64,000 nucleotides of DNA from Verrucomicrobiota bacterium (lineage in GTDB: Bacteria; Verrucomicrobiota; Verrucomicrobiia; Limisphaerales; PALSA-1396). Both the position numbers and the translations under genes were made by a program. A model generated the notes under the pieces. That model saw only the letters and a list, made by a program, of their open reading frames with translations. It had not been told where the DNA came from and made no database searches. Below, piece after piece: positions 164-7,178 of this stretch (positions within the stretch are counted from its first letter, which is position 1; the number at the start of each line of letters is the position of its first letter). The stretch lies in NCBI GenBank assembly GCA_016200005.1, contig JACQFP010000024.1, positions 1-64,000 on the forward strand, given 5' to 3'.

Positions 164-2794
164 ATGTTAAAGACTATGACTAAAATGATCGACCAAAGGC
201 CTCTTTTTATCCTCGTGCTGTGCCAAATGCTCTGGCAGCCCACATCATGGGCAGCCGATCAACCTTCGATTGAGGATTATGCCACCGTTGAGGCTTATGT
301 TGGGGATGTCCCTGTCTACGCCTTTGGCTACACCTATGTTTATGGTGTCAGCCCTGACTTAATGCCAGGGGCTGTGTTTCAGGAAGCCAACACGAACCTC
401 GTCTTGAAAATGGCACCCAAGAAATCTTGGGAAATAAAGCACAGCCTGTTTGGAACTACTCCGGCGCGTGAACCAAAAACTATGTGGAATGATGATCAAC
501 CGCTGTTGCCGCTTCATTTAATCGATGGCGATCCAGAAACAGCGTGGTCGAGCAGAGGGGGTAACGCCGCCGATGCCAATCCGGAATGGATTCGGATTGA
601 CTTGCCGGCCGAGAGCACGGTGGCGTCAGTTGTGCTGGTATGCAGCCGGATTGGTCCTTCGGGGTTCGGGCGCGTGGGAAAGGTTCTACCCAAGAAGTTG
701 ACTATCCGGTTAAGCAGAGACGCCCAGCAGTGGAATACAGTCTATACGAATGAGAACTTTACCGGACCAGATACTGGTCCGTCAGTAATTAACTTTGATC
801 CGCAGCGTGCGAAACAAATCTGGATCATAGCCGGCAACCTCCAGCAAGTTGGAAACTGGGGAAAGGGCCTTTCCATTGGAGAGGTGGAGGTGAGGGATCC
901 GGCAGGCAACAATCTGGCGCTAGTCTCGCGTGGCTCAGGCGTGCAGGTCTCGTCCACTTACTATGGTTACGGCATGGACCGGTTCACGCAGGACATGTTG
1001 TGGCCGATCCAGTATGACCTGGGGGTCAAGTGGCTGCGGGTTGGTTACGATATGGGGATGTATTTATGGTCCTATGTGGAACGGGAGAAAGGCAAGCTGG
1101 AGATTGACCGGCGGGCGGACGAGGTGATCACGGAGGCGGTGCGCAACGGGGTCAACGTGATCATGTGTTTAGACAAAGGGAACTGGTTGTATCGGAATCC
1201 GCCCCGGAAGGTGGAATGGAAGAAAGCGCGTACTCGGGAGATGATGGAAACGTACTACGACCATCAGGGGTGGCCGACGGACAACCCGGAGATGATGGCG
1301 GGCTATTTGAGGTATGTGGATTACATGGTTCGGCATTTCAAGGGCAGGGTGGCCTATTTTGAGATCTGTAATGAATGGCAGGCCGGGCCGGCAATTGGTG
1401 GAATAACGAATTACGTTAAGCTAGTTAAGGCCACAATCCCGGTGATCAAGAAAGCTGACCCAAACGCCCGAATCATGTTGGGTTCCGTTGGAGGTTTCGA
1501 TCAGGGAGCGATACTCGCGTGCCTGGGTGATGGGTCGGAGATCAAGAACGGAAACTTTGTAACCTTAGGTCGAACCATCGCGGTGGCAGAAGGCGCAAAA
1601 GAAAAAGACGTAACCGTGGGCGTAACCGCGCGAAGCAACGCAGAAGCAGGGATTATCCTTCGTTTCAAGGACGACAAGAACTTCCTCCTGGCCAACTATG
1701 CTCCCCAGAACAATGGCATGTATTTCCATGAAGTTATAGACGGCAATTACGGTCCGTTCCTCGCCCGCAAGGAGTTGGAAGGATTTGGTCCTAACATTCA
1801 TTTGACTGCCGCAGTTGAGGGGGTTAAAGCCACCTTGTCAGTATCTGATGGGAATAAAACTTTGACCACGAGTTACTCGATTCAGCGCCTTCAGGATGCC
1901 GGTGGCGTAGGTCTTTTCCACAACTTGGGCGCACGCCAGACCTTTGCTAAATTCCATGTGGCCGCCCCAGACGGTCGCACAATTTTGTCAGAGCAGTTCA
2001 ACAGCGCTGGTGGCAAGCTTTCCGGATGGAAACTCGTAGAGGGCTCTTGGAAGAACGCCTCAGAGAAAATCGTCGCGTCGCAGCTAGATGCGATTGGCTG
2101 GCATCCATTTTATCAAGCTGACCCAGGCGACCGAGGCAACTCCATTTTCTCCGACTACCGGAAAACGCTCGAACAGTTCAAACAGGAGTGTGATCTACTG
2201 GGCTTCAAGGGACAGTATGCGGCAACCGAATGGACGTGGGCAGCGCCCTATCCTCCTCCCACCTCCGGATTGGTTGTCTCCGAGATGCAGAAGGCTAAAT
2301 ACTCGGCTCAACTGATGACAGCTCATTCCGGAATGGACGTGATCTCGCTCTACAACGAGACTTTTCAGAGCGGCAAGTTAGACTGGGACTGTAACCTTCT
2401 TCGCAATGCCTTCCAGTCCGACCCGATCAGCTCTACCCAGCCTCAGCCAATTTATTATGTATTCAGAAACCTTTTTACTGCGTTGGATGATTTCCGGGCG
2501 GTTAACTTCCCTGTCAGATTCGGCACTCGAAAGGTATACGAATGCTACACTTTCAAGCGGGGAAGTGAGTCCCTTGTGGCGGCCTGGATTCCAGGACGGA
2601 CCGGCGACGGCATAGTTGAGGAGAAAACGGAAGTCACTTTGCCAGGACTCGAATGCAAGCGTGCTTGGGGTATTGACCCTATGAACGGAACCGAGCAAGA
2701 ACTTAATATCACTCATCGGGACAACGACACGGTGATCGAGGGGGTGCTGATCAAAGACTATCCGGTTTTCATTGAGGTCCAACCTAAAGATTAA
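164..2794 (+). CDS. Secreted clan GH-A-like glycoside hydrolase with F5/8-type-C-like and inserted beta-sandwich modules
   Basis: This is probably an exported retaining glycosidase acting on plant glycans. Starts at 164, 176 or 185 all lead into a signal peptide (FILVLCQMLWQPTSWA). Residues about 105-255 look like a discoidin/F5-8-type-C carbohydrate-binding domain (DGDPETAWSS, IRIDLP). A TIM barrel begins near residue 263. The NEW motif at about E404 is the expected GH-A acid/base after strand 4, and ATEWTW at about E689 the expected nucleophile on strand 7. Between them, residues about 457-640 form a separate LamG/concanavalin-like module that interrupts the barrel; a homologous module sits in the gene at 4743. 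The C-terminus is a small beta domain. The GH family (5, 39 or other) cannot be fixed by eye. It leads a three-gene plus-strand run, 30 bp before the next start. Confidence 0.7.
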   Translation: MLKTMTKMIDQRPLFILVLCQMLWQPTSWAADQPSIEDYATVEAYVGDVPVYAFGYTYVYGVSPDLMPGAVFQEANTNLVLKMAPKKSWEIKHSLFGTTPAREPKTMWNDDQPLLPLHLIDGDPETAWSSRGGNAADANPEWIRIDLPAESTVASVVLVCSRIGPSGFGRVGKVLPKKLTIRLSRDAQQWNTVYTNENFTGPDTGPSVINFDPQRAKQIWIIAGNLQQVGNWGKGLSIGEVEVRDPAGNNLALVSRGSGVQVSSTYYGYGMDRFTQDMLWPIQYDLGVKWLRVGYDMGMYLWSYVEREKGKLEIDRRADEVITEAVRNGVNVIMCLDKGNWLYRNPPRKVEWKKARTREMMETYYDHQGWPTDNPEMMAGYLRYVDYMVRHFKGRVAYFEICNEWQAGPAIGGITNYVKLVKATIPVIKKADPNARIMLGSVGGFDQGAILACLGDGSEIKNGNFVTLGRTIAVAEGAKEKDVTVGVTARSNAEAGIILRFKDDKNFLLANYAPQNNGMYFHEVIDGNYGPFLARKELEGFGPNIHLTAAVEGVKATLSVSDGNKTLTTSYSIQRLQDAGGVGLFHNLGARQTFAKFHVAAPDGRTILSEQFNSAGGKLSGWKLVEGSWKNASEKIVASQLDAIGWHPFYQADPGDRGNSIFSDYRKTLEQFKQECDLLGFKGQYAATEWTWAAPYPPPTSGLVVSEMQKAKYSAQLMTAHSGMDVISLYNETFQSGKLDWDCNLLRNAFQSDPISSTQPQPIYYVFRNLFTALDDFRAVNFPVRFGTRKVYECYTFKRGSESLVAAWIPGRTGDGIVEEKTEVTLPGLECKRAWGIDPMNGTEQELNITHRDNDTVIEGVLIKDYPVFIEVQPKD

Positions 2795-2899
2795 ATTCGA
2801 ATCAAACCTGAAAGTAAACTGAGAATGACTACACTAAAATTAACTCGACGGGATTTGCTGAAGACAGCCGGAGTATCGGCGGCGGCGATTGCCTTTGGT
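2785..2899 (+). repeat. Direct repeat, copy 1 (leader plus Tat-signal coding start)
   Basis: This roughly 115 bp stretch recurs at 4703-4817 with about 85-90% identity by eye. It covers the last codons and stop of the first gene, the 30 bp spacer and the first 25 or so codons of the GH127-like gene at 2825. Downstream the two genes diverge much more. Confidence 0.85.
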
Positions 2900-4648
2900 G
2901 GCTTGCCGAATGTTGGCAGCCGTGTCTGTCTGGCCGCGGAATCGAGGAAATTGAAAGGGAATGGAATTAGAAGTGCGTTCTACCAGGCCACGGTACCTGA
3001 CACGCTCGACCTTGCGCATAGGGCAAAGTGGGCAGAGAACGCGCTCACAGAGATGCTCGACCCGTCCGCGAACTGGGAGATTTATTTTGGCGGACATCTC
3101 GGCTCGCACGAATCGACCGGGTTACCGACCAACAACCCGAAGTATGCAGAGTCACTTCCGATGATGCGAGTGATCACGGGTGACGATTATAACCGAAATG
3201 TTGAACAAGGAATGACCGAGGCACTCGTTTCCTTGATCCAAAACGATGGGCTTTACTATGCGCCATACACCCCGAAGCGACCGTGGCATGGTGCAAACGA
3301 AGACTTCGCCAACGTTTACGGTCAGGCCAGATGCCTTCTGGCGATGATGGCCCGATACCAGGTGGACAAAGACAGACAGAAAGAATGGGACCAGCGGATC
3401 CGCAAAATGGTGGACCGGCTTGCCGAGATTGCTATCTACAAAGACGATTATGCCTACTTCCCAAAGTCAGGGTCGGATGGAATCGGGCTCGGAGAAGATT
3501 TCAGCTACCTCAAGAAATCAGGCTGGAGAAACACGGAAGAACCTCCAGCCGATATGTGGATGGCGATTTATACCGGAGGTGAAATCCGCGCTCTGTCCCG
3601 CTGGTACATTATGAGCGGTGACAAGAAGGCGCTCGATCTGGCCGGTAAGCTCACCAAGTTCATTATGCACAGGCCGAGCTTCTGGACAGCCGAGGCAGGC
3701 CCATCATTGATAGTCCAGAGCGATCATGGCTGGTGGAAAAGCCATTTCCACGGCTACACACTCACACTTCGCGGACTGCTGGAATACGCGACAGCCACGA
3801 GCAACATTCGGTTGAAGGAGTTCGTTCGCGACGGATATGAGTTTTCCCGCCTCTACGGCATTGCTAAGGTCGGGTATTTCCCGGAATTCAGCAACGTTAA
3901 GAAAAACGAGGCATGCGAACCCTGCTGCATAGCCAATATGATCGCTCTGGCGATCAAACTGAGCGACCTGGGGCTTGGAGACTACTGGGATCACGTGGAT
4001 CAGATTGTCCGGAATCATTTCATCGAGGCCCAGACCTGGTCGGATCAGTGCAACAAGATGTCCCCGTCAAAATATCCGAGGGATTCTGCCAAGAAGCAGG
4101 AATGGATGACACTGGGAGGATGGGGTGCGGGCTGCTGCACCGGTAACTCGAGCCAGGCGCTTTACTATGCGTGGTCCAGCATCGTTCGTTACAGGGACGG
4201 GGTCGCACAGGCGAATCTGCTTCTCAATCGAGCGTCAGAATGGCTGGACGTAAACAGCTATCTGCCGTACGAGGGCAAGGTCGAGATTCAGAATAAGAAG
4301 GCAGACAGAATCCAGGTTCGGATCCCGGCCTGGGTGGACAGGAAGATGGTCAAGTGCTCTGTACAAGGGAAACCCGTCTCTGCGGAATGGGCGGGCAACT
4401 ACCTCATCTTCTCCAAAGTGGGCAGGGATCAGAGAATCACGGTAGAGTTCCCGATGTCGGAATCCGTTGAAACTCTAAAGTATACGAATGCGGAATACAC
4501 GTGTCGGTTCCGAGGCAACACTCTGATATCGGCGACTAAGAAAGGTGAAGGCGCGTGGAACCCGCCCGACCGGAGTTCATACATGGGCGACAAGGCGCCG
4601 TTGAAGATGGTGACCAGATACGTTGCGCCGGTGCTAATCGAATGGTAG
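2825..4648 (+). CDS. Tat-exported GH127-like (DUF1680-type) glycosidase
   Basis: This is a 607-residue protein with a twin-arginine signal (RRDLLKTAGVSAAAIAFGG) and an alpha/alpha-barrel-type body. Two Cys clusters match the GH127 beta-L-arabinofuranosidase zinc site: E-x-C at about E365/C367 (ACEPCC) and CC at about C437/C438 (GCCTGN). In known GH127 enzymes one Cys is the nucleophile and the others, with the Glu, bind zinc. The segment LNRASEWLDVNSYLPYEGKV and the following beta-rich region fit the family's C-terminal beta-sandwich domains. Overall similarity to characterised GH127 is distant, so the substrate is open; beta-arabinofuranosides or related pentosides are a guess. It has a paralogue at 4743 and lacks the extra module found there. 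Confidence 0.65.
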   Translation: MTTLKLTRRDLLKTAGVSAAAIAFGGLPNVGSRVCLAAESRKLKGNGIRSAFYQATVPDTLDLAHRAKWAENALTEMLDPSANWEIYFGGHLGSHESTGLPTNNPKYAESLPMMRVITGDDYNRNVEQGMTEALVSLIQNDGLYYAPYTPKRPWHGANEDFANVYGQARCLLAMMARYQVDKDRQKEWDQRIRKMVDRLAEIAIYKDDYAYFPKSGSDGIGLGEDFSYLKKSGWRNTEEPPADMWMAIYTGGEIRALSRWYIMSGDKKALDLAGKLTKFIMHRPSFWTAEAGPSLIVQSDHGWWKSHFHGYTLTLRGLLEYATATSNIRLKEFVRDGYEFSRLYGIAKVGYFPEFSNVKKNEACEPCCIANMIALAIKLSDLGLGDYWDHVDQIVRNHFIEAQTWSDQCNKMSPSKYPRDSAKKQEWMTLGGWGAGCCTGNSSQALYYAWSSIVRYRDGVAQANLLLNRASEWLDVNSYLPYEGKVEIQNKKADRIQVRIPAWVDRKMVKCSVQGKPVSAEWAGNYLIFSKVGRDQRITVEFPMSESVETLKYTNAEYTCRFRGNTLISATKKGEGAWNPPDRSSYMGDKAPLKMVTRYVAPVLIEW

Positions 4649-4702
4649 GTGGATTAACGTGCAAGTTAAGAGATGGATAATGTGTTTTTTTAATAACCAA
4701 AG

Positions 4703-4817
4703 TAAAGATTAGATTCGAATCAAACCTGAAATTAAATTGATAATGACTAAACTAAAATTAACTCGACGGGATTTGCTGAAGATCGCCGGAGTATCGGTGA
4801 TTGCGATTGCCCTCGGG
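4703..4817 (+). repeat. Direct repeat, copy 2 (leader plus Tat-signal coding start)
   Basis: This is the second copy of the repeat at 2785-2899, offset by 1918 bp. It carries the same TTCGAATCAAACCTGAAA leader core and the same ACTCGACGGGATTTGCTGAA signal-coding core. Here it lies in a non-coding spacer plus the start of the gene at 4743. Confidence 0.85.
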
Positions 4818-7178
4818 CCTGCCGCGCTGGGCGTTGAACTCGGAGCATGGAAAGCCGAGATTGCCAAGAAGGAGCAGGCAATAGCCAAGCGACTCGTGCA
4901 GCCACCGGAGGGCAAGTTCTACGAGGCGGCCGTGCCGGACACGCTGGACCTGGCGGATCGCGCGGCGCTGGCCGCCAACTGCCTGACCGGGGCGCTTGAT
5001 CCGGATTATGGCTACGAGTTATACTTCTCGGTCGATTTCGCCAAGAACCCGCCCTACATGAACCACGATGCGACCGGCCTGCCGACCAACAATCCCAAGT
5101 TCGCCGAATCGCTGGCAATGATGCGCCTGATGAGCGGGAGCAAGCAAAGCCTCGATATCCAGCGCGGAATGATGGTCAGAACGCTGGCCCTGATCGCGGA
5201 TGATGGCCTGTACTACGCCCCGCTTCTTGGCCGACCCTGGCACCAGACCTGGGCTCGTGCCGATGATGACTTTGCCAACGTGTATGGAAATGGTCGACTG
5301 GTGCTCGCACTCCTGGCTTGGCACCAATACGACGGCAACCCTCTCTGGATGGAGTATGCGAAGAAGGTGGTGGCGGGGCTCCGCGGGATCGTCCGGGCGA
5401 AAGGCGACATAGCCTACTTCCCGGACCCCGGGATAGGCGAGTCGTTCAGCTATCCGAAGTCCGGTTACCCGGCGAACCTCCCGGAGCCGACCGAAGCCGG
5501 GTTTGGCATTCATATGTACCATTCCGGAGTGATCCGGGCCTTGGCGAAATATGCGGCGATGACCGGCGATAAGGATGCTTTGGAACTGACGCGGAAGCTC
5601 GTCAATTTCGTGCGCCAGCCAAAGATGTGGGGCGCAAGCGCTGAGCCTAGCGGCGTGACCGGAGCCGAAAAGGCGCATTTCGGGGGTCATTTCCACGCGC
5701 ACGTGGCGTCCCTGCGCGGTTTGCTCGAATACGCGATCGTGGCCAACGACGCCGATCTGAAGGAGTTCGTGAGAAATGGCTACGAGTTCGCTCGAAACTT
5801 CGGTATCGCTCAGGTCGGCTGGTTCCCGGAAAACGCCGGAACCGGCCAGTATTGCGAGTCCTGCGCCATCGCGGATATGGTCGCGTTGGCCGTAAAACTG
5901 ACGGATGCCGGGGTTGGCGACTATTGGGACGACGTCGATCGCTACGTCCGCAATCAACTGGTCGAACAGCAGCTCACGAGCAGGGATCTCCTTGAGAAGC
6001 TCGCCGCCGCCTCGCCGCCGCACAAAGCCGTTCCACCTGCCGAGACTGACGACCGGGTGATCGAGCGGAACATCGGAGGTTGGGTCGGCCATGGAGCCAT
6101 GCACACGCTGCCCAACACCTGGATCATGCACTGCTGCACCGGCAACGGGTCACAGGCCCTCTACTACGCCTGGGAGGGGATCGTCAGGGAGACGAGCGAT
6201 GGAGTCGTGCAGGTCAATCTGTTGCTTAACCGGGCTTCGAAATGGCTGGACGTCGATTCATACCTGCCACACGAGGGCAGAGTAGTCATTAAGAACAAGA
6301 CAGCAAAGAGGATATCGGTCCGTATGCCGGCGTGGGTAACTCGCCGGGATGTCCGATGTGCGGTCGCGTCCAAATCAGTCAGTGCTTCCTGGGTCGGCAG
6401 CTACCTTGTCTTCGACGGCCTAAAGCGAGGCTCCGATATCGAGATCGACTTTCCGGTGGTCGAGACGACTACCAAGGCCTCCCTGGATGGCGTAACTTAC
6501 ACGCTGAACTTCTGCGGCAACACTCTCGTTGGCTTCCCCTCACCGGATCAGCCGGCAGGAAAAATAGGAATCCAGGACGGCAGGTTGGGTCTCGCTGACA
6601 ATGGCAGAGTTGTTGCCAAGGGTGTGCAGGCTGCGGACGTCAGAGTAAGCGCAGACGCGAACAGCAACACGGAAGCCGGCATCATGCTCCGATACCAGAA
6701 TCCCGGCACTTTCCTCCTCGCCATATATGCTAACAAAGGTGTTTATTTCCACGAGGTCGTTAACGGCAGCTATGGCCCGCTGCTCGACTTTGTACCCGCC
6801 GACGGGTTTGGGTCGAGGATCAGTGTCGTTGCGGAGGTCACTGGATCTGACGCGACCCTGACGGTTACTGACGGGCAGAAGACGATAGCGACCAAACACA
6901 AGATCACCCGCAGTAACAATGCGGGGGCAGTCGGGCTTTTCAACAACCGGACGCCTGCCCAGATGTTCGACAACTTCCGCGTGTCCGATCCGAGCGGAAA
7001 GCTGGTATTCGAGGACATGTTCGACGATCCAAACGCCTCGTCGTCCCGCTGGGAAATCGCGATTCGCCGCGCGGGCAGCACGAATGACTATCCCATCTAT
7101 CGGCGGAGCTATTTGCGCGGCAAAGCGCCGCTGGTGAAGAAGACGCGTTACGTGCTGGAACGCCACATTGATGGATAG
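4743..7178 (+). CDS. Tat-exported GH127-like glycosidase with inserted LamG-like module
   Basis: This is an 811-residue paralogue of the gene at 2825. The ATG at 4743 is preferred over TTG at 4737 because it aligns with the paralogue's start. It has a Tat motif (RRDLLK) and the same GH127-type metal/nucleophile clusters: CESC at about E372/C374 and HCCTGN at about C464/C465. The extra length is a module at about residues 600-773, inserted between GNTLVG and RGKAPL. In the paralogue these two points are joined by a short loop. The module is homologous to the one in the first gene (shared EAGI.LR, FLL..YA, YFHEV, GLF.N). It closes the three-gene run of exported enzymes and is followed by a long non-coding gap. 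Confidence 0.65.
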   Translation: MTKLKLTRRDLLKIAGVSVIAIALGPAALGVELGAWKAEIAKKEQAIAKRLVQPPEGKFYEAAVPDTLDLADRAALAANCLTGALDPDYGYELYFSVDFAKNPPYMNHDATGLPTNNPKFAESLAMMRLMSGSKQSLDIQRGMMVRTLALIADDGLYYAPLLGRPWHQTWARADDDFANVYGNGRLVLALLAWHQYDGNPLWMEYAKKVVAGLRGIVRAKGDIAYFPDPGIGESFSYPKSGYPANLPEPTEAGFGIHMYHSGVIRALAKYAAMTGDKDALELTRKLVNFVRQPKMWGASAEPSGVTGAEKAHFGGHFHAHVASLRGLLEYAIVANDADLKEFVRNGYEFARNFGIAQVGWFPENAGTGQYCESCAIADMVALAVKLTDAGVGDYWDDVDRYVRNQLVEQQLTSRDLLEKLAAASPPHKAVPPAETDDRVIERNIGGWVGHGAMHTLPNTWIMHCCTGNGSQALYYAWEGIVRETSDGVVQVNLLLNRASKWLDVDSYLPHEGRVVIKNKTAKRISVRMPAWVTRRDVRCAVASKSVSASWVGSYLVFDGLKRGSDIEIDFPVVETTTKASLDGVTYTLNFCGNTLVGFPSPDQPAGKIGIQDGRLGLADNGRVVAKGVQAADVRVSADANSNTEAGIMLRYQNPGTFLLAIYANKGVYFHEVVNGSYGPLLDFVPADGFGSRISVVAEVTGSDATLTVTDGQKTIATKHKITRSNNAGAVGLFNNRTPAQMFDNFRVSDPSGKLVFEDMFDDPNASSSRWEIAIRRAGSTNDYPIYRRSYLRGKAPLVKKTRYVLERHIDG

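Follow-up and report, generated by a model that had tools for sequence, protein, structure and literature searches.

Near the start of the window, the 64,000-nucleotide stretch of Verrucomicrobiota DNA analysed here, three adjoining genes encode exported enzymes (P0001, P0002 and P0003; Table 1). Two of these, P0001 and P0003, appear to be glycosidases of unrelated fold, and yet they hold a common segment within their chains, which raises the question of what this segment is and how it came to lie inside both. The answer that we consider quite probable is that it is a CBM66/LamG-like module, nested in each enzyme, circularly permuted in the lineage of the window and presumably able to bind a glycan.

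Two exported enzymes with a common segment

P0001 is assigned to the GH-A type from barrel motifs picked out by eye (an acid/base-like NE and a nucleophile-like E), its match to the GH5-type Pfam model PF00150 (E 1.6e-4, 21.7 bits) lying beneath the curated cut-off of 23.5. For the GH127 model PF07944, P0002 exceeds the curated cut-off (27.6 against 24.9 bits) and P0003 falls below it (18.8 bits), yet the host part of P0003 is 46 % identical to P0002. A direct repeat of 120 nt (88 % identical, window positions 2779–2898 and 4697–4816) takes in, for both P0002 and P0003, the leader between the genes together with the beginning of the twin-arginine signal. The two proteins themselves are just 46 % identical, and the repeat may stem from gene conversion or from 5′ ends exchanged recently.

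Alignment of P0001 and P0003 by BLASTP joins residues 460–624 of the former to 610–772 of the latter with 42 % identity (E 3e-35), and reveals no other significant similarity between the two proteins outside of this segment. The homology claimed from short shared motifs in an earlier, sequence-only reading of this DNA is thus upheld, and the motifs quoted there are present. Searches of Pfam and NCBIfam returned no model covering the segment, and its base composition displays no notable difference from that of the host genes.

Table 1. Genes and module features of the locus, with positions in the window
Feature	Position (nt)	Strand	Remarks
P0001	164..2794	+	GH-A-type exported host enzyme; N-terminal F5/8 type C domain, residues 116–225
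P0002	2825..4648	+	GH127 paralogue of P0003, without module; empty site near nt 4553–4558
P0003	4743..7178	+	GH127-like exported host enzyme; orthologue L024 64.6 % identical, same insert
Nested module of P0001, predicted permuted	1535..2059	+	about residues 458–632
Nested module of P0003, predicted permuted	6540..7082	+	about residues 600–780
Putative moved first-strand pair of P0001 module, now C-terminal	1973..2047	+	residues 604–628, RTILSEQF...GWKLVEG; score of this copy alone modest
Putative moved first-strand pair of P0003 module, now C-terminal	6996..7061	+	residues 752–773, GKLVFEDMFDDPNASSSRWEIA; score reached by 0 of 300 shuffles

Empty sites in module-free relatives

With regard to the GH127-like host, P0002 passes from the strand GNTLI directly to the final strands bearing TRYV, as do two relatives encoded in other genomes (L052 and L053), and it is between these same elements that P0003 harbours approximately 180 extra residues. 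The claim that the gene at 2825 displays the uninterrupted host loop therefore stands for P0003, but does not extend to P0001: since P0002 is paralogous to the GH127-like host and not to the GH-A host, the insertion in the latter needed a control of its own. This is provided by P0001 relatives encoded by two further genomes of the order, L043 (38 % identical) and L044 (48 % identical), in which approximately 30 host residues connect the strands IMxG and DAIGWHP, as opposed to approximately 200 in P0001. The proposed location between the acid/base and nucleophile strands agrees with this comparison and, as judged from sequence motifs, the module probably occupies the helix-5 segment of the barrel, between the NE and E residues. 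A third, apiosidase-like host family (described below) also possesses an empty site, in relatives L074–L077. In all three host families (GH-A, GH127-like and apiosidase-like), then, the host is continuous in relatives that lack the module.

The orthologue of P0003 in a groundwater planctomycete MAG, L024, harbours the module at the same place, which disfavours an assembly artefact. That the segment is native to both folds, or that the likeness is one of chance, was considered and is refuted by the empty-site alignments, which are clean in the GH-A and GH127-like families, and by the strength of the pairwise match; no point in favour of either was found, and their probability is practically negligible.

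A rare module with further hosts

Within the whole genome from which the window derives, module copies were found in P0001 and P0003 only. A more distant relative (L023, G000:C50:17540–17827; E 4.9e-4) occurs in a 384-aa frame of the same genome; the strength of this match is within the weak range shared with L010, which, by type of fold, matches PF06439 and GH43_C2 best.

A profile search with the module alone, proposed in the sequence-only reading as a means of counting host families, extends the distribution to apiosidase-like, GH95-like and, as a distant pair, GH116 proteins. The core profile (A2) identifies 18 loci in a collection of 84,980 species genomes, 16 of which encode apiosidase-like proteins. 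One of these, L029, matches PF13204 at 2.4e-66, and the other fifteen share 48–85 % identity with it across the host part. Carriers of this type occur in Verrucomicrobiota, Planctomycetota, Armatimonadota and one MAG labelled Neomarinimicrobiota, and in each host the module is placed directly ahead of the last strand, SPQDWVLVLE. One such host, L035 (1079–4534; 1152 aa), continues for approximately 390 residues beyond the usual last strand, and this extension, by eye, resembles an esterase or hydrolase domain.

In the GH95-like example (L041, 5339–5758; identical in sequence to L014), a normal-order module interrupts a PF14498 protein behind position 105 of the 234 in the profile; the contig ends inside the module, and half of the nesting is visible. 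A GH116 protein (L016; G525, contig C21) possesses two distant module copies, arranged head to tail upstream of the GH116 domain. Loci L009 and L035 are likewise identical, and through these two pairs (L014/L041 and L009/L035) the window genome falls in one order with named Verrucomicrobia MAGs, a Pedosphaera MAG among them. Of 293 genomes of this order, 10 have matches (three of these weak), whilst a search of the phylum with the permuted profile returned the window genome only. The best reading of this distribution is of a rare accessory domain repeatedly inserted into host loops, and it adds a module without a Pfam model to the carbohydrate-active enzymes of Verrucomicrobiota and Planctomycetota.

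Predicted fold

Structural prediction of the isolated P0001 module with AlphaFold (pLDDT 86.2, pTM 0.83) used 20 rows, the C-terminal tail strand being covered by three of them only; that of the normal-order module of L034 used 17 rows (pLDDT 86.9, pTM 0.86). The module, of approximately 170 residues, is predicted to form a concanavalin-A-like (CBM66/LamG-like) beta-sandwich. The closest solved structure to the P0001 model is the CBM66 of SacC (4azz; Z 17.0, rmsd 2.3 over 143 residues), and the normal-order model matches 4azz/4b1m at Z 18.6–18.9. Taken with the empty sites, the models support the earlier suggestion of a LamG-like unit nested in two unrelated folds.

Despite this likeness, hmmsearch with the normal-order profile against all PDB sequences, 4azz and 4b1m included, matched no CBM66 chain to E 10. 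Filing the module within CBM66 was therefore rejected, since the fold agrees but similarity of sequence was looked for and is absent. A further candidate, PF06439 (3-keto-disaccharide hydrolase, DUF1080-like), has the same general type of fold, and 6 of 17 normal-order modules display sub-threshold similarity to it (best E 0.0012). The match is weak, with nothing above the curated Pfam cut-off among normal-order modules and no match for P0001 or P0003, and the context of the module does not suggest catalysis.

Evidence for a circular permutation

The order of strands appears to differ between the window modules and those of most other hosts. Normal-order modules in apiosidase-like and GH95-like proteins begin with a first strand pair (e.g. 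LLFADRFDDTGSSAWKDYGT) followed by the core GRLVGGKG...EAGIILRF...NFELS, with the nested module of all 16 apiosidase-like hosts opening on the strand LLFADRFD...WKDYG. The modules of P0001, P0003 and L024 instead open on the core, which is followed by a segment resembling the first pair (RTILSEQFNSAGGKLSGWKLVEG; KLVFEDMFDDPNASSSRWEIA; NALFEDAFAGPDGTPKGWKVV). A position-specific matrix for the first strand, derived from normal modules and built without P0001, P0003 and L024, scores the tails of these three at 8.1, 15.6 and 17.9, values reached by 2, 0 and 1 of 300 shuffles, respectively; for their heads, 61, 229 and 199 of 300 shuffles reach the score. Amongst the normal-order controls, heads score 20–62 and tails mostly <1, but two tails attain 8.4 and 8.5, and the P0001 tail is for that reason no proof alone. 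It does, however, fall within the segment homologous to P0003.

Comparison of the two models displays the same rearrangement. Thirteen strands, spanning 34–37 to 169–177 of the normal model and 11–14 to 145–153 of the window model, correspond in the same order at an offset of approximately 23, whilst strands 13–17 and 27–29 of the normal model correspond to 159–163 and 175–178 of the window model. When placed on PDB targets with a sequential aligner, the L034 model covers these from the first strand (4azz from residue 5, 1dhk from 1, 1g7y from 1 and 3zr5 from 471), whereas the P0001 model starts 9–17 residues later (16, 18, 18 and 480, respectively) and leaves its own tail unaligned, which is what a permutation predicts.

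It could instead be argued that no permutation occurred, the C-terminal strand pair having been added within the window clade, and the ancestral first strand either lost or provided by the host. The modest P0001 tail, with its two normal-order equals, would suit this explanation, as would an HMM test using doubled sequence, in which the alignment became no longer than before (a probable cause being how little information the first strand holds). Neither the scores of the P0003 and L024 tails nor the rotation of one strand series between the two models is readily accommodated by it, and the N-terminal first strand is absent in exactly those forms that have a C-terminal one; we thus regard it as distinctly improbable. 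The sequence tests, the two AlphaFold models and the alignments to common PDB targets agree in supporting a permutation, by which the first strand pair of the window-lineage module is predicted to lie behind the last strand. Neither this permutation nor the GH95-like and GH116 hosts had been noticed in the sequence-only reading.

History, spread and mobility

Phylogenetic analysis of the cores recovers the permuted forms as one clade (96/89); within it P0003 groups with L024 (93/87), and P0001 falls outside that pair, although the long branches in this tree advise caution. Most simply read, the permutation happened once, and the permuted module then came to be shared by GH127-like and GH-A hosts, no later than the time at which P0003 and L024 diverged. 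Under such a scheme the CBM66/LamG-like module would enter a host loop as a continuous nested domain, which it can do without breaking the host fold because its two ends are near one another in either permutant. Its ends would have moved once, before the two unrelated hosts came to share the permuted form, and transfer between these hosts might have proceeded by gene-level recombination. Duplication with deletion is one among the routes proposed for circular permutation (PMC2395249), and a tandem duplication with subsequent loss of the outer halves could account for the present case. The head-to-tail pair of L016 shows the wider family to contain tandem copies, and is the kind of intermediate that a duplication-and-truncation model requires; the pair is too distant to prove such an intermediate, but is possibly its relic or model. 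Together, the normal-order relatives, the empty sites in three families and this distant pair render the order of events testable.

The module had also been described as possibly mobile, and a true mobile element, for example one with a circular DNA intermediate, would explain the permutation as well as the patchy spread over phyla and host families. Mobility in the sense of an element is not supported. No DNA-level signature of mobility was found in boundary repeats, viral contigs or plasmids: the module edges display no repeat that holds up as a target-site duplication, and searches of viral contigs and plasmids returned no relatives. The identity between copies, at approximately 40 %, indicates old and rare shuffling, and each host family has one conserved position. 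Carriage by a mobile element is accordingly highly improbable. One candidate duplication, a 20-nt repeat at 1452 and 2115 (85 % identical), was rejected, as it encodes host residues (ADPxxR) of a kind present in module-free relatives.

A broader proposition, on which we remain evenly divided, is that of a CBM66-like family specialised for life inside enzymes, nested in unrelated glycosidase folds across several phyla and existing as two permutants, with the point of opening adapting it to host loops.

Putative function

Residues E494, R500, Y512, H522 and D562 (P0001 numbering) are invariant in 20 of 20 rows, permuted and normal alike, which fits a polar binding pocket. The module hosts all look like carbohydrate-active enzymes. 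From the CBM66-like fold, the invariant polar residues and these hosts, it seems likely that the module binds a glycan, and by so doing it would hold the catalytic domain on its substrate. This need not be a fructan: among the CBM66 members studied, binding is to the ends of fructans and, for one of them, to modified xanthan (PMC11002231).

Alternatively, the nested domain could be ligand-free, serving as a structural spacer or as a surface for protein contact or oligomerisation within the glycosidase. Concanavalin-A-like sandwiches are structural as well, those at the C-termini of GH43 and GH32 enzymes being amongst the matches, and between P0003 and L024 the module has diverged more rapidly than the host (44.7 % identity as against 69.3 %). 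That charged and aromatic residues are invariant across different hosts and both permutants, and that the closest fold is a binding module, nonetheless makes this explanation rather unlikely.

Comparison with known systems

For both forms of the module the top structural match is the C-terminal CBM66 of the Bacillus subtilis exo-levanase SacC (PDB 4azz, 4b1l, 4b1m). Both are non-catalytic sandwiches on glycosidases, but that of SacC is terminal and of normal order, whilst the present module is nested and, in the window, predicted to be permuted. Binding modules nested in catalytic barrels are known from CBM58 in SusG and from CBM4 pairs in GH10 xylanases (PMC7848910), which are likewise inserted within the enzyme rather than appended; these cases each involve one host family, and no permutation has been described for them, whereas the present family is nested in several unrelated folds. 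A naturally permuted jelly roll is known in the 1,3-1,4-beta-glucanase of Fibrobacter succinogenes (as cited in PMC2395249). According to that citation, it too is a concanavalin-A-like sandwich with circularly permuted strands, but forms a catalytic domain, whilst here an accessory module is nested in both its permuted and its normal form.

No publication describing a binding module with both properties, permuted and nested, or one nested across several unrelated glycosidase families, came up in a limited literature search. Nested carbohydrate-binding modules and permuted jelly rolls are each known, and it is their combination in one module that appears to be new. Work on nested accessory domains has usually been separate from that on circular permutation; the present module appears to combine the two, and gives enzyme engineering a naturally insertable domain whose ends can lie at either of two places.
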